Assembly: GCA_020053305.1 (NCBI GenBank)
Contig: JAGVNJ010000070.1
Span: forward strand, 1-64,000
Reading direction: 5' to 3'
DNA from: Candidatus Edwardsiibacteriota bacterium
GTDB taxonomy: Bacteria > Edwardsbacteria > AC1 > EtOH8
Length of the DNA: 64,000 bases
Translations under genes and position numbers: made by a program
Part shown: positions 3,190 through 14,375 of the stretch, piece after piece
How positions within the stretch are numbered: the first letter of the stretch is position 1
Layout: every line of letters begins with the position of its first letter
The notes under the pieces: model-generated
What the model saw: only the letters and a program-made list of their open reading frames with translations
Database searches by the model: none
What the model was told of the DNA's origin: nothing

Positions 3190-4398
3190 TTAAAATAGTT
3201 CCACTTCTACCATATCACCTACCTTCACTCCCTCGCACTCCTCCGGCAGTATCATCAGCCCTTCGGCCTGGACCATGGAGGTAAGAATGCCAGACCCCTG
3301 CGGCCCGGTGAGAACCGCCTGGTACGCCCCGTCCTGCCATTTTACTTTAGCGCGAAGGAATTCAGTCCTGCCTGCCTGTTTCCTTATTCCCTGATTGCTG
3401 TGCGCTGTCACCTGCACCCTGAACATATTCGCTGCCCCCTGCATGGCCAGCAACAGCGGCCGCACGTACTGGTCGCAGACCACCATCGAGGACACCGGGT
3501 TGCCCGGAAGCCCCACCACCGGCTTGCCGTTGATATGCCCATAGGCCAGCGGTTTTCCCGGTTTCTGCTTCACCTGCCAGAAGTTCATCTGCCCCAGTTC
3601 GGACAGCGCCTGTTTCATCAGGTCGTAGTCGCCCACCGAGACCCCGCCCGAAGTGATGATCACATCGCACTCCCGGGCCGCCTGGTTCAGGGTCTCCTTG
3701 ATCTTTGCCAGATCGTCGGCGATGATGCCGTAATCCCTGACCAAGGCCCCGGCCTCTTTCACCTGTCCGCCGATGCTGAACCGGTTGGCGTCGTAGATCT
3801 GCCCCGGCTTCAGCGGCTGGCCCGGCGCGGCCACCTCGTTGCCGCTGGAGATTATTCCTACTAGCGGTTGTTTAAAGACCATGACTTCGGTCAAGCCCAA
3901 AGAAGCTATCAGCCCCACCTCCTGCGGACGTAGCCTGGTTCCTTTGGCTATCAGCAATTGCCCTGTAGTAACATCCTCTCCCTGCCTGCGGACATTGGCC
4001 CCTTGCTTGACCCCCTTCAATATTCTAACTTCGATATTCTGTATTCCTTTACTGGTCAATTCTACTGGCACCACCGCATCCGCCCCTTCGGGCATCTGCG
4101 CCCCGGTCATGATCCTGATGGCCTGTCCCGGTTTCAAGGACTTGGCGGCCACCCGGCCGGCCGGAACGTCCTCAATCACCTGCAGTGTCACCGGCCTTTG
4201 CTCCGAGGCCCCGGCGACATCGGATGCGATGACGGCAAAGCCGTCCATGGCCGAGTTGTCTTTCGGAGGAATATCAAACGAGGCCGTGACATCCTGGGCC
4301 AGTACCCGGCCCAAAAGGTCCTCCAGACGGCACTTTTCAGAAGGCAATAGTTTTATGCCCTCGAGTATTTTATTTCTGGCTTCGTGAAAGGAGATCAT
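3190..4398 (-). CDS. moeA: Molybdopterin molybdenumtransferase MoeA
   Basis: Inserts molybdate (or tungstate) into adenylylated molybdopterin. The protein shows the MoeA domain order: N-terminal domains with 'DIPPKDNSAMDGFAV' (about 40-55), 'IMTGAQMPEGADAVVP', the MPT-binding core with 'ITSGGVSVGDYD' and 'GLPGNPVSSMV', and the C-terminal beta domain ('GSGILTSMVQAEGLMILP'). At 402 residues it is of normal length. The start codon lies one base after the stop of the AT-rich TIR-like gene. It is linked to a tungstate transporter, which suggests the cofactor made here may carry tungsten. Confidence 0.95.
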   Translation of the reverse strand: MISFHEARNKILEGIKLLPSEKCRLEDLLGRVLAQDVTASFDIPPKDNSAMDGFAVIASDVAGASEQRPVTLQVIEDVPAGRVAAKSLKPGQAIRIMTGAQMPEGADAVVPVELTSKGIQNIEVRILKGVKQGANVRRQGEDVTTGQLLIAKGTRLRPQEVGLIASLGLTEVMVFKQPLVGIISSGNEVAAPGQPLKPGQIYDANRFSIGGQVKEAGALVRDYGIIADDLAKIKETLNQAARECDVIITSGGVSVGDYDLMKQALSELGQMNFWQVKQKPGKPLAYGHINGKPVVGLPGNPVSSMVVCDQYVRPLLLAMQGAANMFRVQVTAHSNQGIRKQAGRTEFLRAKVKWQDGAYQAVLTGPQGSGILTSMVQAEGLMILPEECEGVKVGDMVEVELF

Positions 4399-4399
4399 T

Positions 4400-5461
4400 T
4401 TAATTATTGGTTGGATTATCGTTATTTTTTAAAGGTCCTTCACCATATATCGCAAGAATTCTGTCTTTTAACTTTTCATATAATAATTCTTCCGTTTCCC
4501 ATGGTATATGATTTAAATGCGATGTGTCAAAATGTAGATTTTTAATATCGTCTTGTTTGCATGTAGAAATTGTTTCAATACCCAGGCCCCTTGCAAAGCC
4601 AGCTTCGTAATATACCCCATGTCTTTGACCAGTGTAATCGGCTACAATAAATTTGCTTTTCCGTATTTCTGTAATTATTTTATCTGTAACATCACCGGTA
4701 TAGTGCTCTTTGTCTACTCTTATTGGTTTGTAACCTGCCTCATAGATAGCTTTTTCTATTTTAAGATAAATATTATCCATACTTTGATCAAACCACATGG
4801 CTACGAAACATTGGGGTAAATTTTTCATAGTCTGTACTTCATTCACAACCTTCCAACCATTGACTGTAATTATACAATTAGTCCCACGAATATCTATATA
4901 ATCATTTTTTTCTAAATATTCAAGATAGTAACGAAATTCTTCAGCACTTCCGCTGTATGAAGCCGTATAATCTTTCTCTGAATCAAGGGGTATTAAATTC
5001 CCTGGGAATCTATTGCTGTTCGCTAAATTGGTTAATAATTTAATTGCTTTATCATGGGGCGTTTTAGGTGCTTGTTTGATTGCAAATATTATTTGTTCTT
5101 TTATCTTATCCTTTGCAATTCTTATGAAAGGTTCGTTGCGCAATTTATTGTATTTATAAGACAAAGATTCAGTTGTCCCTGCTTCTGAGCGTAGTTTATT
5201 TACAATATTATAATCTCTAATTTCTGTTTGTTCTCTAGTATAACCGAGGAACCAATATAATTCATCCTCATTAATGATACTAAGCAACAACTCATGAATA
5301 TCGTCAAAATCATCTAATATAAAGGCATAATTTCCACAGCGAGGACAATCGATTTCTAAATATTGTCCATATATTTTTTCTGATATTAGAGCTTCTTTAA
5401 ACTTTGATTCTTTATAATTACATACAGGGCAGGGCCCTTCAGTAAATCCAATTTTACTCAT
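4400..5461 (-). CDS. Zinc-ribbon protein with a TIR/deoxyribosyltransferase-like C-terminal domain
   Basis: Not recognised as a named gene. ATG 5461 (353 residues) is chosen over the track start 5476 because AAGGAGA lies just before it. Residues 10-50 form a zinc ribbon with two CPxC knuckles. The middle, about 80-210, looks like a helical or winged-helix linker. The C-terminal 130 residues begin 'CFVAMWFDQSMDNIY' and contain 'DVTDKIITEIRKSKFIVADY' and 'GVYYEAGFARGLG'. This matches the pattern of nucleoside deoxyribosyltransferase/TIR-like folds, some of which act in phage defence or nucleotide signalling. The DNA is much more AT-rich than its neighbours, suggesting transfer. It sits inside the tup-moeA operon, 27 bases after tupC and one base before moeA. 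Function is inferred only from fold resemblance. Confidence 0.65.
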   Translation of the reverse strand: MSKIGFTEGPCPVCNYKESKFKEALISEKIYGQYLEIDCPRCGNYAFILDDFDDIHELLLSIINEDELYWFLGYTREQTEIRDYNIVNKLRSEAGTTESLSYKYNKLRNEPFIRIAKDKIKEQIIFAIKQAPKTPHDKAIKLLTNLANSNRFPGNLIPLDSEKDYTASYSGSAEEFRYYLEYLEKNDYIDIRGTNCIITVNGWKVVNEVQTMKNLPQCFVAMWFDQSMDNIYLKIEKAIYEAGYKPIRVDKEHYTGDVTDKIITEIRKSKFIVADYTGQRHGVYYEAGFARGLGIETISTCKQDDIKNLHFDTSHLNHIPWETEELLYEKLKDRILAIYGEGPLKNNDNPTNN

Positions 5462-5488
5462 TGTTTTCTCCTTCATTCATTATATAGA

Positions 5489-6559
5489 TTATTCCTCTCG
5501 CCAAACTCTAACACTGCTGGCCTTGAACACCGCATACACCTTGCTGCCCTTCTGCAAACCCATCTCGTCCCACGAGGCCTTGGTAATGGCCACGTCCAAC
5601 AAAAGACCAATATCTAAAGTAACCTTGTACAACCCGCCCTCGGAAACGGCCTCGGTAACAACTCCCTCCAGCACATTGCGGGCGCTGCTGACTAATTTCT
5701 GGGTGGACAATATTATTTCGGTAGGATTAAGACTTGCCATGGCCTGGCCTTCCAGCCCGGTCACAACTTCAAACTCTGTCACTCCAACCTTGAACAATTT
5801 CCTATTTCCCATTTTTCCAATTTCCCCGGCAAAAAGGTTGTCCCGGCCCAAAAACTTCCCCCAGAAGGCCTGATCGCCCTTGTGCAGAACGTCCTGGGCC
5901 GTGCCGGAGATAGAGATCACTCCGTCGTTCAGAAACCAGACCCAGTTAGCGATCCGCTCCACCTGCCAAAGATTGTGGGTGGCCAGTATGACCTTCTTCC
6001 CGCGGCGGGCCAGGGTCAATATGGTCTGCTCTATCAGCTTGGCGCTGATGGGGTCCAGATTGGCGGTAGGCTCGTCCAGGAATATTATTTCCGGTTCGAT
6101 CACCAGGGCCCGGGCCAGAGCCACCCGCTGGATCTCGCCGGCCGACAGGCTCCTAGCCTGGCGTTTTTCGAAACCCGATAGTGATAGATGCTCCAGTACC
6201 TGTTGTGCCCGCTTTCTAATGATCTTCCCAGCCGTTCTCCGGACTTTCAGCCCATAGGCAATATTGTATTCCACCGAACCGGAGAACATCACCGCCGGGT
6301 TGTGGATCAGCGCCATCTTTCTCCTGATCCCGGGTGTGGTATTCAGGGTCGCATAGCCCTCGCTGTCCCGCACCTTGTACTTCAGGATGCCGGAATCCGC
6401 CTTCTCCAACAGTGCCAACATTCGCATCAGTGTGGTCTTGCCGGAACCGTTGGGTCCCACCAGGGCGTAGACGCCGGGCTTTTCTATGATTAGGGAGATA
6501 TCTTTAAGCACCACTTTCCCATCGAAACTCTTGGAGATGTTCCGGGCGACTATCTTCAT
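5489..6559 (-). CDS. tupC: Tungstate/molybdate ABC transporter ATPase
   Basis: Cytoplasmic ATPase that drives oxyanion import with TupB and TupA. Walker A is 'GPNGSGKTTL' (about residue 35), the signature motif 'LSAGEIQRVALARAL' and Walker B 'IIFLDEPTANLD'. After the ABC domain (to about 230) comes a C-terminal domain with 'GVTEFEVVTGLEGQAMA' and 'NVLEGVVTEA', a TOBE/MOP-type oxyanion-sensing region. At 356 residues the architecture resembles ModC/TupC. Its ATG overlaps the tupB stop by four bases (ATGA), implying translational coupling. The substrate is assigned from the neighbouring TupA. Confidence 0.88.
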   Translation of the reverse strand: MKIVARNISKSFDGKVVLKDISLIIEKPGVYALVGPNGSGKTTLMRMLALLEKADSGILKYKVRDSEGYATLNTTPGIRRKMALIHNPAVMFSGSVEYNIAYGLKVRRTAGKIIRKRAQQVLEHLSLSGFEKRQARSLSAGEIQRVALARALVIEPEIIFLDEPTANLDPISAKLIEQTILTLARRGKKVILATHNLWQVERIANWVWFLNDGVISISGTAQDVLHKGDQAFWGKFLGRDNLFAGEIGKMGNRKLFKVGVTEFEVVTGLEGQAMASLNPTEIILSTQKLVSSARNVLEGVVTEAVSEGGLYKVTLDIGLLLDVAITKASWDEMGLQKGSKVYAVFKASSVRVWREE

Positions 6560-7251
6560 CGCCCAGCCCTCCCCTGCACCAATTGGAGGACGACGTTGAT
6601 GCCTATGGCAACCACTAAAAGAACGAACCCCAGAGCGATCCCCAGTTCGAAATTACCCTTGATGGTCTCCAGGGCGATGGCGGTGGTCATCACCCGGGTC
6701 TCTCCCTTGATGTTCCCGCCCACCATCATGGTCATGCCGGTCTCGCCCAGCACCCGGGAAAAGCCGGTGATGAAAGCCGCCGCCATAGCGAACCGGACCT
6801 CTCGCATGATGCCCAGGGTCAGATGCCGGCGGCCGGCGCCCAGGGTGATCATGGTCTCCTTCACCCGGTGCCCCAAAGACTGCAGGGCCGAGATGCTTAG
6901 GCCCGTCATCAGCGGGATGATCAGCAGGGTCTGGGCTATGATGATGGCCGAGGGTGTATACAGCAGGCGCCAGAAGCCCAGCGGACCCGAACGGGATAAT
7001 AGCAGATAACAGACCAGCCCTATCACCACTGCGGGGATAGCGATGAAACTGTTGACCGTTCCGATGACGATCCGCTTGCCCTTGAATTCGTTCTGAGTGA
7101 TGGCAAACGACAGCGGGACGGCCAGGCAGATGGCGATCACCGAAGAGGCCAGCGAGACCCGCAGGGACATCAGGACTATCTGCCAAATCTCGGCGTCGAA
7201 TTTCAGCAGCAGGCCCAGGGCCTGTTGCAGGCTTTGGATCAAATTGAACAT
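6556..7251 (-). CDS. tupB: Tungstate ABC transporter permease
   Basis: Inner-membrane permease of 231 residues with about five to six hydrophobic segments. The coupling loop 'FSRVLGETGMTMMVGGNI' (about 165-185) is the EAA-type motif seen in TupB/WtpB proteins, and 'KGETRVMTTAIALET' follows it. It lies between tupA (213 bases upstream) and tupC (4-base overlap). The tupA-tupB gap holds no recognised element beyond a short palindrome (GTTATATAAC). Confidence 0.88.
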   Translation of the reverse strand: MFNLIQSLQQALGLLLKFDAEIWQIVLMSLRVSLASSVIAICLAVPLSFAITQNEFKGKRIVIGTVNSFIAIPAVVIGLVCYLLLSRSGPLGFWRLLYTPSAIIIAQTLLIIPLMTGLSISALQSLGHRVKETMITLGAGRRHLTLGIMREVRFAMAAAFITGFSRVLGETGMTMMVGGNIKGETRVMTTAIALETIKGNFELGIALGFVLLVVAIGINVVLQLVQGRAGR

Positions 7252-7464: not shown

Positions 7465-8292
7465 CTATTTCTTCTCCGCCGCCGGGTAGAACAGGGGCTG
7501 ACCGTATTTGTCCACCCCATATTCGGCGATCATCTTCCGGCCCCGCTCCGAGGTCAGGAAGTCCGAAAATTTTTTGGCCAGGGAATAATTAACGAACGGG
7601 TGCTTGGCCGGGGCCACCAGCATGATATGGTAGGGGTTGAACAGCTCATTGTCCCCGTCGTTCAGGATCGGCAGGTCATATTCTTTCTGGTGGGCCAGGT
7701 AGGTGCCGCGGTCGGTCAGGCTGTATGCCCGCTTTTCGTTGGCGATGCGCAGGATGGCCTCCATCCCGGCACCGGCTTCAAGATACCAGGAGCCCTTGGG
7801 CTTGATCCCGGCCGCTTCCCACAGCCGCTGTTCCTTCTTGTGGGTGCCTGACTGGTCGGCCCGGGAGACGAAGGTTGCCCGCGAAGCCTCTATCATCTTC
7901 AGCGCTTCGGTGGCGGAGGCCAGGCCCTTGATGCCGGCCGGATCCCCGGCCGGGCCGACAATGACAAAATCGTTGTACATCAGGTATTTGCGTTCCACGA
8001 AAAAGCCATGTTTGACCACCTGGGCCTCGGCCACCGGATCGTGCACCAGCACCACATCGGCGTTGCCGTCCTTGCCGTAGCGGATGGCGGCTCCGGTGCC
8101 CACCGCAATGATCTGTACCTTGCAGCCGTTCTCCTTCGCGAAGACCGGGACCAGAAAATCCAGCAGCCCCGAATCCATGGTGCTGGTGGTGGTGGCCAGT
8201 ACCAGCTTGTCCGCCTCCGGCGGATTGGCCATGGCCGGCGTTGCAATACTCAAAGCCAGCAGTGACAGAGCCAGTGTTGCGAACCTCTTCAT
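7465..8292 (-). CDS. tupA: Tungstate-binding periplasmic protein TupA
   Basis: Extracytoplasmic solute-binding protein of 275 residues. It has a Sec signal peptide ('LALSLLALSIATPAMA', cleavage near 22) and the TupA hallmark 'LATTTSTMDSGLLDFLVP' at about 32-50, then 'VGTGAAIRYGKDGNADVVLVH' (quoted in part) and 'YNDFVIVGP'. The TTTS and VGTG segments form the oxyanion pocket in characterised TupA proteins, which prefer tungstate over molybdate. GGAGG precedes the start. It is the first gene after a Moco-type riboswitch with a terminator, so expression is expected to fall when cofactor is plentiful. Confidence 0.93.
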   Translation of the reverse strand: MKRFATLALSLLALSIATPAMANPPEADKLVLATTTSTMDSGLLDFLVPVFAKENGCKVQIIAVGTGAAIRYGKDGNADVVLVHDPVAEAQVVKHGFFVERKYLMYNDFVIVGPAGDPAGIKGLASATEALKMIEASRATFVSRADQSGTHKKEQRLWEAAGIKPKGSWYLEAGAGMEAILRIANEKRAYSLTDRGTYLAHQKEYDLPILNDGDNELFNPYHIMLVAPAKHPFVNYSLAKKFSDFLTSERGRKMIAEYGVDKYGQPLFYPAAEKK

Positions 8293-8341: not shown

Positions 8342-8371
8342 AAAAAGCCCGCCCCGGAGAAAAGGGCAGGC
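8342..8371 (-). terminator. Attenuator terminator upstream of tupA
   Basis: Minus-strand stem GCCTGCCC / GGGCGGGC with an 8-base loop, followed by six T. It lies between the riboswitch aptamer and the tupA ribosome site, the usual place for an expression platform. It could also catch readthrough from the SDR gene upstream. Confidence 0.85.
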
Positions 8372-8376
8372 TACAT

Positions 8377-8514: not shown

Positions 8515-8741
8515 GATCGGAGAACATTTATCAGATTATATCAGAAAGCTGGATGTCTGTCAAACCTTACAGAATGTCTATCAAATTAGCTCAGAAACAT
8601 GCCCCAAAGCTATCTATCCGCAGATTTCACAGATGTTCACAGATTTTTCTATTCAAGTTAATCAGTTAGGTACAAATAGATCAGTTACAATCTGCGTTAA
8701 TCTGTGGATAAAGGTTCCTGAGTACGTTAGATAAGAATTTC
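8515..8741. other. Intergenic region with degenerate 'ATCTGCG/ATCTGTG' phrases
   Basis: No convincing gene is seen between the SDR stop and the riboswitch. Bases 8615-8655 read 'ATCCGCAGATTTCACAGATG' and on, and 8690-8710 read 'AATCTGCGTTAATCTGTGG'. Similar phrases recur in at least seven other gaps of this window, so they look like remnants of a dispersed intergenic repeat. Confidence 0.5.
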
Positions 8742-9528: not shown

Positions 9529-10833
9529 TTATATTATCTCTTTGATCAGCTTAACAACTTCCGGTTTATTCTCAGATATACTGATGCACTTCACCAACCT
9601 TCTAACCGCTTCCTGTCCCTTCTGTTCATCATTGTAAAGCACTTTGGCCATGGTCTCCCCGGCTTTGACCTGATCGCCGATCCTGCGTTCGAAGATGAAC
9701 CCAGCCGAGGGGTCGATCACATCGTCCATCTTCAGCCGACCGCAGCCCAGGAAGACACCGGCCATGCCCACTTCCCGGTTGTCCATGGAATTTATGTATC
9801 CCGAGATTTCAGCTTTGGCTTCTATAACGTGTTTGGCCTGGGGCAGAACCTTCTTGTAATCATCAGCCACCTTTACCTCCCCGCCGTGGGCCGCCACCAT
9901 TTCCCTGAATTTCTCCAATCCCTGGCCGGAAGAAACAATCTGTTCAAGTATTCTTTTACCCGACTCCGCATCACCGGCCCGTTCGCCCATCACCAGCATC
10001 TCGGCGCCCAGGGCATAGGTCAACTCCATCAGATCGTCAGGACCCTTGCCTTTCAGGCAGTCCACGCATTCTTCTATCTCCAGCGCATTGCCCACCGCCC
10101 GGCCCAGCGGCTGGTTCATGTCGGTGATCAGGGCCTTCATCTTTTTGCCCATCCCCTGGCCGATGGCCGTCATGGTTCTGGTGAGATCCAATGCCTCCTG
10201 CTGTTTCTGCATGAAGGCCCCGCTTCCGGTCTTGACGTCCAGCACCAGCCCATCGGCCCCCTCGGCCAGCTTCTTGGACATGATGCTGGCGGCTATCAGC
10301 GGAATGCAGTCCACCGTGGCGGTGACGTCGCGCAGAGCATAGAGCTTCTTGTCGGCCGGGGCCAGGTCCGGGGTTTGGCCCATCATGGCCAGCCCTATCC
10401 GGGCCAGGGTATGGCGGAACTCGTCGTAAGACAGGTTGGTGCGGAAGCCGGGAATGGATTCCAGCTTGTCCAGCGTTCCGCCGGTGTGGCCCAAGCCCCG
10501 CCCGCTGACCATCGGCACCGGCACCCCGGCCGCCGCCACCATCGGCGCCAGGATGATGGAGACCTTGTCCCCCACACCGCCGGTGGAATGCTTGTCAACC
10601 TTGATGCCGGGAATGTCCGACAGGTCGAACACTTTCCCGGAGTTCATCATGGCCATGGCCAGCTCGGTGGTCTCCTGGGGAGTCATGCCTTTCAGGAATA
10701 TGGCCATCAGCAGGGCCGAAGTCTGGTAATCGGGCATGGCCCCGGATGTGTAACTGGCGATGAACCATTTTATCTCGGCAGCCGAGAGTTCACCACCGTT
10801 GCGTTTTTTATAGATTATCTCATAAGGGGTCAT
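9529..10833 (-). CDS. pdp: Pyrimidine-nucleoside phosphorylase
   Basis: Phosphorolysis of thymidine, uridine or deoxyuridine to base and (deoxy)ribose-1-phosphate. The 434-residue length and sequence match the DeoA/Pdp family: 'MTPYEIIYKKRNGGELS' at the N-terminus, the phosphate-binding 'KHSTGGVGDK' (about 81-90), 'SGRGLGHTGGTLDKLES' and 'LDVKTGSGAFM'. DeoA and Pdp are hard to separate by eye; the length is closer to the Bacillus-type Pdp. Its ATG overlaps the stop of the upstream KAP NTPase gene by four bases (ATGA), so it is probably translated by coupling from that gene. Confidence 0.92.
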   Translation of the reverse strand: MTPYEIIYKKRNGGELSAAEIKWFIASYTSGAMPDYQTSALLMAIFLKGMTPQETTELAMAMMNSGKVFDLSDIPGIKVDKHSTGGVGDKVSIILAPMVAAAGVPVPMVSGRGLGHTGGTLDKLESIPGFRTNLSYDEFRHTLARIGLAMMGQTPDLAPADKKLYALRDVTATVDCIPLIAASIMSKKLAEGADGLVLDVKTGSGAFMQKQQEALDLTRTMTAIGQGMGKKMKALITDMNQPLGRAVGNALEIEECVDCLKGKGPDDLMELTYALGAEMLVMGERAGDAESGKRILEQIVSSGQGLEKFREMVAAHGGEVKVADDYKKVLPQAKHVIEAKAEISGYINSMDNREVGMAGVFLGCGRLKMDDVIDPSAGFIFERRIGDQVKAGETMAKVLYNDEQKGQEAVRRLVKCISISENKPEVVKLIKEII

Positions 10834-12200
10834 AGAGATAATCTCTCGATTAATTCAATTGACTTATGGTAAATAGCTTCTTTATATTTGTTTTCACTAC
10901 CACGATTGAAAGCAGTTAATATTTCTTTAATTTGTGTAGTTTTTATAAAGTGAACAGCATACTTTATATGGTCTGGTTGTTTCGAAAGCATTTTTTCATC
11001 ACTCATATAATCTGTGTTTTTACCTATACTTACGATAGAATCAATAATTGATAAACCGGGTTGATGCTTTTTAAGTATATTACAAAATTCTGGATATTTA
11101 TGATATAAAAGAATTGTTAAAAAGAGTGCATCTTTATTTACGGTTGATAAAGCAGTCTGTTCTATATTATTAATTATAAGTATATATTTTGTAAATATTT
11201 TTTTAATTAACCTTATGCTGTATATTTGTGCTGCCAAAAACATACCAGTAGATATCTCCGGGATAAGGGATTCGCTAAATATATCATTGTTCATTTTTTT
11301 GTATTCTTGAACAATACCTGGTATTATATTTCTTAATTCAGTAGGTAAATCAAAGGTAAATTTAATAATTTTTTCTGTGTATTCTTCCCCATCTAATAAA
11401 TTTAACGAACCATATTTATGTGCAATTGCATGACTAATAATGCCTTTGTTTACACCCATAACAAATATACACTTATCTGTATAAAATATATTCTTAATTG
11501 ATTCAAACAGTTGAATCACATTTTCCGGTAAACAACGATCTAAATCGTCAATAAAAATGATTAGCTTCTTCTTCTTTTCTTTTATTAAAATATAATTAAC
11601 ATACTTCTCAAAATCAATTTTCAATTTATCTATTTTTTCATAACTACTTTCATTCTTTTTATCTTTTCCAAATATTGACCATATTTCTTTAAAGATTTCA
11701 ATTGCCACAAGTGGGATACATTTAACATAGCCCAATAAATAGATTATCGGTAAAATAACATGCCCAATTAGCTTCCAGCGTATAACTTTACACCACCATT
11801 CAATTATTTCTATTTTTTTGACTAATGGATATATTAAATTGCCTACCGATTCATATTTCCAGGGTTCAAACCATATAACCTTAATTTCATCTTTATACCT
11901 CTCGTTTATAGAATCATAAATCCAATGCATATAAACAGTTTTACCAGTGCCCCAACCACCATTTATGCAAAATGTATATGGCGGTTTGGCTTTTATAATA
12001 GTGTTAACAATAACTTTGATTGATTTATAACGGTCAGCAAGATCTTCTTCGGGTGTTAAGTATTCAGCATCTGGGTTTAGACAAGATTCACTAAATCCTC
12101 TTTGTGGTTTTTCCACTAAGGCTGATAAGGCAATTTCTGCTTGTGGTTTTTTCTCTTCAGAGATTTTGTCAACCAAATCATGTAAATTTTCATTTAGCAT
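10830..12200 (-). CDS. KAP-family P-loop NTPase
   Basis: 456-residue NTPase of the KAP group. Walker A is 'GGWGTGKTVYMHW' (about residue 83). Two hydrophobic segments ('LIGHVILPIIYLLGYV', 'IPLVAIEIF') lie between Walker A and Walker B 'KLIIFIDDLDRC' (about 215), an insertion typical of the family. 'IFVMGVNKGIISHAIA' follows. KAP proteins are patchily distributed and some are linked to phage defence or plasmid maintenance; many are uncharacterised. The gene is strongly AT-rich in a GC-rich neighbourhood, suggesting transfer. Its stop overlaps the pdp start (ATGA). The start is preceded by a weak AGG. No partner gene is seen beside it. Confidence 0.85.
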   Translation of the reverse strand: MLNENLHDLVDKISEEKKPQAEIALSALVEKPQRGFSESCLNPDAEYLTPEEDLADRYKSIKVIVNTIIKAKPPYTFCINGGWGTGKTVYMHWIYDSINERYKDEIKVIWFEPWKYESVGNLIYPLVKKIEIIEWWCKVIRWKLIGHVILPIIYLLGYVKCIPLVAIEIFKEIWSIFGKDKKNESSYEKIDKLKIDFEKYVNYILIKEKKKKLIIFIDDLDRCLPENVIQLFESIKNIFYTDKCIFVMGVNKGIISHAIAHKYGSLNLLDGEEYTEKIIKFTFDLPTELRNIIPGIVQEYKKMNNDIFSESLIPEISTGMFLAAQIYSIRLIKKIFTKYILIINNIEQTALSTVNKDALFLTILLYHKYPEFCNILKKHQPGLSIIDSIVSIGKNTDYMSDEKMLSKQPDHIKYAVHFIKTTQIKEILTAFNRGSENKYKEAIYHKSIELIERLSL

Positions 12201-13239: not shown

Positions 13240-13878
13240 TTATTCGTGCACCGCTTTAAAGGTGCCCTGGTTCCATCCCAGAAGAATCGTCCAAGTGTTG
13301 GCATCCTGCTGCCCATCGATGGCACATTTCTGGATAAGGCCCTCGAAGACCTCGATCCTTCCCGTCCTGCCGTCAACCGACTTCAAATCGACGAACCCCG
13401 ACCATGCCCCTATGGAGAACATATCTATCAGGCTGAAGATGGAGATGATGTACAGGTCGCCTTCGAATTTTTTGGCCTTTTTGGCAAAGAGTTTTATGGC
13501 CTCGTTGGAGTATTTCAATCTGATGTTGACGGCCTTGAGAAGTTCCTCCTTGTTGACCGGCTTGGTAAGATATTTCTGGGCGCCTATGGAATAACCATAG
13601 ACCTTGTTATCCATCGCAGTCTTAGCTGTCAGGAAAATAAAAGGAATTGATCTGAGATTGGGATCCTCCTTAAGTTGGCGGCAAAAATCATAGCCATCCA
13701 TATTGGGCATCATTATATCCGAAACGATTAGGTCCGGCTTCTCGTTTTTTGTTCTTTCCAAAGCCTCCCTGCCATCGTTGGCTATTATAATGTCATAGCC
13801 TTCTTTTTTCAATTCATAAGCCAATATTCTGGTTATGTTTGGCTCATCATCTACAACTAATAATTTATATGCTCTCAT
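13240..13878 (-). CDS. Response regulator with C-terminal DUF4388-like domain
   Basis: 212-residue two-domain protein. The receiver (1-120) has the acidic pair in 'VVDDEPN' (D10/D11), the phospho-acceptor D54 in 'VSDIMMPNMDGYDF', T84 in 'FLTAKT' and K106 in 'YLTKPV'. The C-terminal part ('FSLIDMFSIGAWSGFVDLKS', 'GRIEVFEGLIQKCAIDG') resembles DUF4388/PATAN domains, which replace DNA-binding outputs in many gliding or multicellular bacteria. A second DUF4388 protein is at 26485-27171. No histidine kinase is adjacent. No ribosome site precedes the ATG, and the promoter places the RNA start nearly at the start codon. Confidence 0.85.
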   Translation of the reverse strand: MRAYKLLVVDDEPNITRILAYELKKEGYDIIIANDGREALERTKNEKPDLIVSDIMMPNMDGYDFCRQLKEDPNLRSIPFIFLTAKTAMDNKVYGYSIGAQKYLTKPVNKEELLKAVNIRLKYSNEAIKLFAKKAKKFEGDLYIISIFSLIDMFSIGAWSGFVDLKSVDGRTGRIEVFEGLIQKCAIDGQQDANTWTILLGWNQGTFKAVHE

Positions 13879-13884
13879 GAGATA

Positions 13885-13913
13885 AATATAATATAAAATT
13901 GCTTAAAAGTCAA
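13885..13913 (-). promoter_or_regulatory. Promoter of the receiver-DUF4388 gene, possibly leaderless
   Basis: Minus-strand TTGACT (13908-13913), 17 bases, TATATT (13885-13890). The expected RNA start is within a base or two of the ATG at 13878, implying a leaderless message. Confidence 0.6.
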
Positions 13914-14120
13914 TAATTTTAATAATCTATGTTTTGATTGATAAATATTTGTTTTTTTTGGATACATGAAAAATATGCAGTTACCAGTAAAACCAAAATT
14001 TCTCAACTATGGGTGTACGCTTTTATTGCAAAGTTAGCATGTAACTTTTTGACAACACAAACGTATTTTACATGAATATCAATAATATTAATAATTATAT
14101 TAAATATTTTAATATATCTC

Positions 14121-14149
14121 TTGACAAAGTTAATTATTTTTGATATAAT
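14121..14149 (+). promoter_or_regulatory. Consensus promoter of the envelope module
   Basis: Perfect TTGACA (14121-14126), 17-base spacer and TATAAT (14144-14149). RNA would start near 14156. The upstream stretch 13930-14120 is strongly AT-rich and holds no gene; it may act as an UP element. The track ORF beginning with TTG at 14121 starts inside this -35 box and is rejected in that form. Confidence 0.88.
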
Positions 14150-14162
14150 ATCAACAATCAGA

Positions 14163-14345
14163 ATGGTCTATGCCGTACTAATTATCTGGACTGGAATTGT
14201 ATTGCTGCACGGCATTACGGGCCTCGGTTTTAGGACCGATTCCATCGGGAAATATCCGGGAAGCAGGATAGTGACAGCCAAACATGTCTCCCCTGCCCCC
14301 GTCCTTGATCGCCTGCTCGATTCATTTACCCCCCTTTACTATTGA
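14163..14345 (+). CDS. Possible 60-residue small membrane protein in the leader
   Basis: ATG 14163 is in frame with the track ORF and lies just downstream of the predicted RNA start. It encodes a hydrophobic segment ('VYAVLIIWTGIVLLHGITG') followed by a polar tail. No convincing ribosome site is present and no family is recognised, so it may be spurious leader sequence. If real, it would be the first gene of a stress operon rich in small membrane proteins. Confidence 0.25.
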   Translation: MVYAVLIIWTGIVLLHGITGLGFRTDSIGKYPGSRIVTAKHVSPAPVLDRLLDSFTPLYY

Positions 14346-14375
14346 TCGTAAAACTCAAATAAGGATGTATATAAA

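Follow-up and report, generated by a model that had tools for sequence, protein, structure and literature searches.

The gene at positions 4400-5476 (minus strand) of the window, the whole 64,000-nucleotide stretch of Candidatus Edwardsiibacteriota DNA that we analyzed, probably encodes a stand-alone anti-phage sensor-effector carried as cargo in the slot between tupC and moeA. We would put this reading at about 60%, with the protein predicted to lie latent and to cleave NAD(P)+ or another nucleotide upon infection. We favor it because of a TIR/nucleoside deoxyribosyltransferase (NDT)-like domain, a variable sensor half, an AT-rich gene, and relatives that are mobile, sporadically present, and found beside type I restriction (hsd) genes. 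From what the sequences offer, namely the architecture, an invariant glutamate, the family context, reuse of the slot, and exchange of the sensor half, we infer a trigger, oligomerization, a substrate, and a defense outcome as follows. The N-terminal half, which evolves fast and comprises the zinc ribbon, a helical linker, and the winged helix, would sense something made or exposed in infection, and recognition would lead the C-terminal TIR/NDT-like domains to assemble. Glu291 would then attack the N-glycosidic bond in NAD(P)+ or in some other nucleotide, and its cleavage would halt growth before phage is produced. The metal-cofactor operon would provide transcription and translation, with no molybdenum or tungsten role needed. 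By this reading, a large family that has no name probably consists of single-gene anti-phage effectors, and a metabolic operon of an ordinary kind has repeatedly been used to house such cargo away from defense islands, where searches based on defense islands would overlook it.

The first-pass annotation had placed an AT-rich open reading frame between tupC and moeA, and its reading of the junction held at every point. The longest reading encodes 358 amino acids, the form used here for residue numbering, and 352 amino acids are encoded from a start at 5461 (Met7, MSKIGF...), which we prefer over 5476 because the Shine-Dalgarno sequence AAGGAG lies 6 bases upstream. Read directly from the sequence, 27 bases separate the tupC stop from this start, and one base separates the stop of the gene from the moeA ATG (4398). 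The base composition is likewise foreign, with GC of 0.31-0.33 across the gene versus 0.50-0.61 around it. Averaged by gene, GC is 0.32 versus about 0.58 in the flanking tupC and moeA, and GC at third codon positions (GC3) is 0.24 versus 0.72 in moeA.

In order along the minus strand, the operon consists of a perfect consensus sigma-70 promoter (TTGACA-17-TATAAT; 8535-8563), the Moco/Tuco riboswitch RF01055 (8393-8534), an intrinsic terminator that is probably the expression platform of the riboswitch (8346-8372), tupA (substrate-binding protein; 7465-8292; PF12849, E = 1e-45), tupB (permease, conserved in sisters; 6556-7251), tupC (ABC ATPase with a TOBE domain by Pfam; 5489-6559), the TIR/NDT-like gene, moeA (Pfam MoeA_N/MoCF/MoeA_C; 3190-4398), and mobB. 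The control by a cofactor riboswitch that had been proposed for this operon is supported by the RF01055 match, which scores 87.5 bits and stands directly behind the promoter.

An AlphaFold2 model of the window protein, built with a 73-sequence alignment (mean pLDDT 86.8), runs from a zinc ribbon (residues 10-58) through helices (60-113) and a winged helix (121-204) with a linker helix to a C-terminal alpha/beta domain (222-345). Both ends agree with the earlier assignment of an N-terminal zinc ribbon and a C-terminal TIR/deoxyribosyltransferase-like domain. The zinc ribbon (5303-5449, minus strand) has beta structure in the model and the pattern C16-x2-C19...C44-x2-C47, with each cysteine kept in about 77-99% of the 73 members. 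A winged-helix-like region (residues 121-219; 4820-5116, minus strand) is suggested by two weak lines of evidence: a Pfam match to HTH_45 below the cut-off (E = 0.0099), and Foldseek matches of the N-terminal half, which folded alone with a pLDDT of 89.6, to CRP/FNR and MarR-type (MepR) winged helices and Sso10a (best E = 0.039). The C-terminal domain (residues 222-345; 4442-4813, minus strand) has a TIR-like fold, with Foldseek matches to the SPARTA TIR (E = 5e-4), nucleoside deoxyribosyltransferase, the SARM1 TIR (TMt 0.61-0.67), and DNPH1, and PF05014 matches it in 72 of the 73 members at E ≤ 0.01 (best 1.2e-7). Glu291 (4604-4606, minus strand), the predicted catalytic residue, lies in VYYEAGFA after the central strand, the place of the ExG motif of PF05014. 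It is present in 100% of the 73 members, as are D280, Y289, F316, D317, and W326. We take Glu291 to be equivalent both to the glutamate of the SPARTA and SARM1 TIR domains and to the NDT nucleophile. Mean column conservation was 0.66 in the enzyme domain versus 0.30-0.36 in the sensor half.

The domain is no closer to TIR NADases than to nucleotide hydrolases (DNPH1, NDT), which counts against the favored reading and is why we leave NAD(P)+ and other nucleotides as alternatives. This kinship also bears on whether the gene might encode an enzyme of nucleotide metabolism unconnected with defense, akin to DNPH1 or a CMP hydrolase, whose other half is regulatory and binds nucleic acid. Such a role would fit weak sequence-profile matches in the PDB that include Rcl/DNPH1 and NDT (E = 0.04-0.2), the resemblance of VYYEAGFA to the NDT/DNPH1 ExG motif, and the DNA binding that the modeled winged helix may suggest. 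We nevertheless consider it unlikely, as sporadic distribution, carriage by phages and plasmids, linkage to restriction-modification (R-M), and a fast-evolving N-terminal half are atypical of housekeeping enzymes. When the window protein's sequence was searched directly against the PDB, no match was returned. DNPH1/Rcl and the nucleoside deoxyribosyltransferases (PF05014) are the best curated domain match and share the ExG active-site motif, but the domain of the window protein is, unlike theirs, fused to a sensor-like N-terminal half.

Relatives were found at 521 places on genome contigs from many phyla (using one peptide pattern) and at 38 viral-contig loci (using two). Scanning the genome contigs with no query but the window protein gave no relatives, whereas the alignment-based scan succeeded. 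Profile matches occurred in 47 of 386 sampled genomes, a sporadic presence; the count takes in distant members sharing only the C-terminal domain. All 73 members scanned matched PHROG 16139 (best E = 3e-191), the window copy at E = 6.5e-44 over residues 141-340. Profile similarity, the zinc ribbon, and the invariant E291 place the window protein in this same family, although the PHROG is a label alone and carries no functional explanation. The TIR effector model of PADLOC matched 73 of 73 members. The window copy falls under the curated cut-off of PF05014 (17.3 versus 28.8 bits), which counts against the defense reading. No fitting model was found in NCBIfam, and we found no description of an architecture combining a zinc ribbon, a winged helix, and a TIR/NDT-like domain in the open-access literature. 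None of the libraries searched gives the family a functional name, and it does not pass the test that defines any of the named systems. Separately, elsewhere in the genome of the congener G003 there is another, distantly related TIR/NDT-like gene (L008, 949-1935) that is 33% identical over the domain and has a different N-terminal half.

The architecture nonetheless resembles several known designs. Swarozyc, a TIR-like NADase with DUF4062 (PMC13174449), likewise has a TIR/NDT-related domain, a conserved glutamate, and a winged/HTH auxiliary domain, the last of which engages the phage portal in the case of Swarozyc (PMC13174449). The window protein differs in that its zinc ribbon and winged helix are N-terminal, and we rejected membership since Pfam scans of the window protein and of family members gave no DUF4062 match. 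NDT-like retron effectors (PMC12548924) have a comparable effector domain within an anti-phage system, and a work listed among its references calls Retron-Eco1 NAD+-hydrolyzing in its title; the window gene, unlike NDT-type retrons, stands alone, with no reverse transcriptase among its slot neighbors. The SPARTA TIR-APAZ protein and the SARM1 TIR NADase share the C-terminal fold by Foldseek, but the window protein has no Argonaute/APAZ part and its motif, VYYEAG(F/Y)A, is NDT-like. Thoeris, CBASS, SPARTA, and NDT-type retrons were all rejected, as the immediate neighbors are tupC and moeA, with no ThsA, CD-NTase, pAgo, or reverse transcriptase. In design, the protein may also be likened to Abi-type TIR/NDT fusions, some with zinc ribbons (PMC3710099), which likewise combine a variable N-terminal part with a toxin-type domain.

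Evidence for a defense-type role, which had been suggested from the C-terminal domain, came from genomic context across the family. Within about 6 kb of the gene, hsdM, hsdS, or hsdR was present at 15 of 80 genomic loci; the other 65 had no hsd gene in the available DNA, some of it on short contigs. At the 15 hsd-linked loci the gene mostly overlapped or touched the end of hsdS, with hsdR downstream. At E ≤ 1e-10, adjacent genes (n = 138) matched 306 PADLOC models, chiefly those for the specificity and methylase subunits of type I systems, compared with 10 models for genes of the same loci that lie at a distance of more than 4 kb (n = 95). Many of these models are redundant and the neighboring reading frames were chosen mechanically, so member counts make for a fairer comparison: about 9 methylases and 8 specificity subunits among adjacent genes, and none of either among far genes. 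Copies in phages have integrases, terminases, and antirepressors nearby, and relatives include plasmid copies and Streptococcus prophage copies, those on plasmids adjoining SEFIR, methyltransferase, and NACHT genes. Family genes were AT-richer than their flanks at 73 of 78 genomic loci (median GC difference -0.06, with 32% below -0.10), whereas 327 other reading frames of the same loci had a median difference of +0.02, with 4% below -0.10. Against the defense reading, no other defense gene adjoins the window copy, the nearest candidate being a KAP P-loop NTPase gene 5 kb away.

The type I linkage raises the question of whether the protein is instead a guard of the restriction enzyme, like PrrC, whose gene sits inside the type I operon EcoprrI (PMC2610378, PMC3710099). 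Such a guard would be held inactive by the Hsd complex and freed when a phage anti-restriction protein strikes, and the window copy would be a stray or act in trans. Relatives of the window gene do lie inside type I R-M operons as prrC does, with hsdS immediately before the gene and hsdR after it at most of the 15 hsd-linked loci, and N6 methylase genes occur on other contigs of the window genome. The enzyme, however, is unrelated to PrrC, restriction operons carry many unrelated cargo genes, 65 of the 80 loci show no hsd gene in the available DNA, and the window operon has no R-M genes either. We regard a guard as improbable.

When the tupC-moeA slot was compared across relatives from the same genus and family, the TIR/NDT-like gene was present in three congeners: the window genome (G000), G001 (92% identical), and G003 (37%). 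It also lies directly before moeA-mobB, with rho further down, in the more distant genome L034, deposited as Holophagales UBA2201 (moeA 66% identical); there the upstream side lies at a contig end and does not read as tupC, which limits the comparison to the moeA side. The slots of G002 and G006 instead contain genes for a Y1 (REP-associated-type) transposase, 46% identical to each other and with stops overlapping the moeA ATG. The G006 copy was confirmed weakly by a Pfam search that missed the G002 copy, so the latter is assigned by similarity to the former. The slot has no gene in G008 and G009 (122-149 bp) or G007 (5 bp), and unrelated genes precede moeA in G004. In two relatives the Y1-type transposase genes in the slot lie at L021 (8022-8579) and L022 (8316-8855), and in two others the slot has palindromes of the kind GTAGGGGCGAGGCGTGCCTCGCCC, as if left by Y1-type elements, at L023 (10090-10125) and L024 (7890-7925).

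The tupC-moeA junction is a reused cargo slot rather than the site of a unique wedge. The first-pass annotation was correct that a foreign gene lies in a cofactor operon, but not that it uniquely interrupts a conserved one, and the comparison of sister loci argues against a lone recent insert. That annotation had held that presence at this position across the phylum with matching composition would speak against an intruder. The position did prove to be shared, by three congeners and, ahead of moeA, by L034, but the composition never matches the host: slot genes have GC of 0.316-0.324 and GC3 of 0.21-0.25 in hosts whose moeA has 0.54-0.63 and 0.63-0.81. In the tree, the four slot genes group together as a single clade (100/99), with the L034 gene nested among the congeneric ones. 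Several independent insertions would fit this nesting, but a topology following species, with the congeners together, was not rejected (p-AU 0.0685), and one old arrival with fast divergence of the slot genes would also be compatible with these sequences.

Slot comparison bears on two further explanations. The gene might work in tungstate or molybdenum cofactor physiology and be kept under the riboswitch for that reason, given a slot common to three congeners, adjacency to moeA in L034, and a zinc ribbon that could bind metal. This seems very unlikely, as the slot lacks the gene in G002, G004, and G006-G009, REP-type transposase genes occupy the same slot, and no tup/moe cluster, nor any other molybdenum or tungsten link, was seen among the recurring neighbor families of relatives elsewhere. 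Because those relatives are located in prophages, on plasmids, and within restriction operons, the tungstate operon more likely does no more than provide expression. Least probable, in our view, is that the slot holds a functionless or purely selfish passenger that its two neighboring genes tolerate. Its AT-richness, its patchiness, and use of the slot by REP-type transposase genes agree with this, but the frame is intact in four genomes, catalytic and zinc residues are retained, and the enzyme half is under purifying selection.

That selection was apparent from nucleotide comparison of G000 with its nearest sister G001, which also exposed a 734-bp tract (4761-5494, minus strand) with only 4 mismatches (99.5% identity). 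The tract spans the last bases of tupC, the leader, and the sensor half, ending at codon 239 in the early TIR domain. Outside it, identity is 78% in tupC, 78% in the rest of the gene, and 79% in moeA, and synonymous divergence is 0.85-1.45 versus 0.015 inside (residues 1-229). For the enzyme half, dN is 0.11 and dS is 1.45 (dN/dS about 0.08). Given this low divergence of the sensor half and high divergence of the enzyme half, the enzyme half dates from about the species split and is under purifying selection, and the leader and sensor half, the latter without the enzyme half, were exchanged much later. An exchange of this sort would be expected of a recognition module on which phages exert pressure, although a neutral conversion tract ending there by chance could also account for a single event (n = 1).

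Long residence is expected to shift the composition of a gene towards that of its host. Of the 27 four-fold sites in the enzyme half that can be compared, 18 differ between G000 and G001, yet GC at these sites is 0.33 and 0.37, respectively, versus 0.79 and 0.74 in moeA. This leaves either selection on AT content or a regular supply of replacement alleles from an AT-rich pool. A tentative elaboration, which we hold to be possible though doubtful, is that the junction is a one-gene immune slot with an old resident, a single-protein receptor. Its recognition half would pass between species by homologous recombination through conserved leader and enzyme-half sequence, its enzyme half would descend along with the host, and selection would hold its AT content at the extreme seen. 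As G000 and G001 have a common sensor half with different enzyme halves, and G003 and L034 differ in the sensor, trigger recognition and enzyme activity could be separable.

Several minor observations concern the surrounding DNA. In several relatives two tupA-like genes stand in tandem, at L020 (13492-15129), L021 (11598-13235), L022 (3527-5170), and L023 (5126-6769); the second shares 40-42% identity with tupA of the window, where that gene is single and a 214-bp gap precedes tupB. Positions 13601-14350, upstream of a response-regulator reading frame, are AT-rich (GC 0.35) and largely without a reading frame of their own. The KAP P-loop NTPase gene (10830-12200, minus strand; Pfam E = 1.5e-32; PADLOC PDC-S20, 7e-31) is a second AT-rich single gene, with no match among nine relatives. 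Its stop overlaps the start of a pyrimidine-nucleoside phosphorylase gene, and it is probably another defense cargo tucked into an operon.
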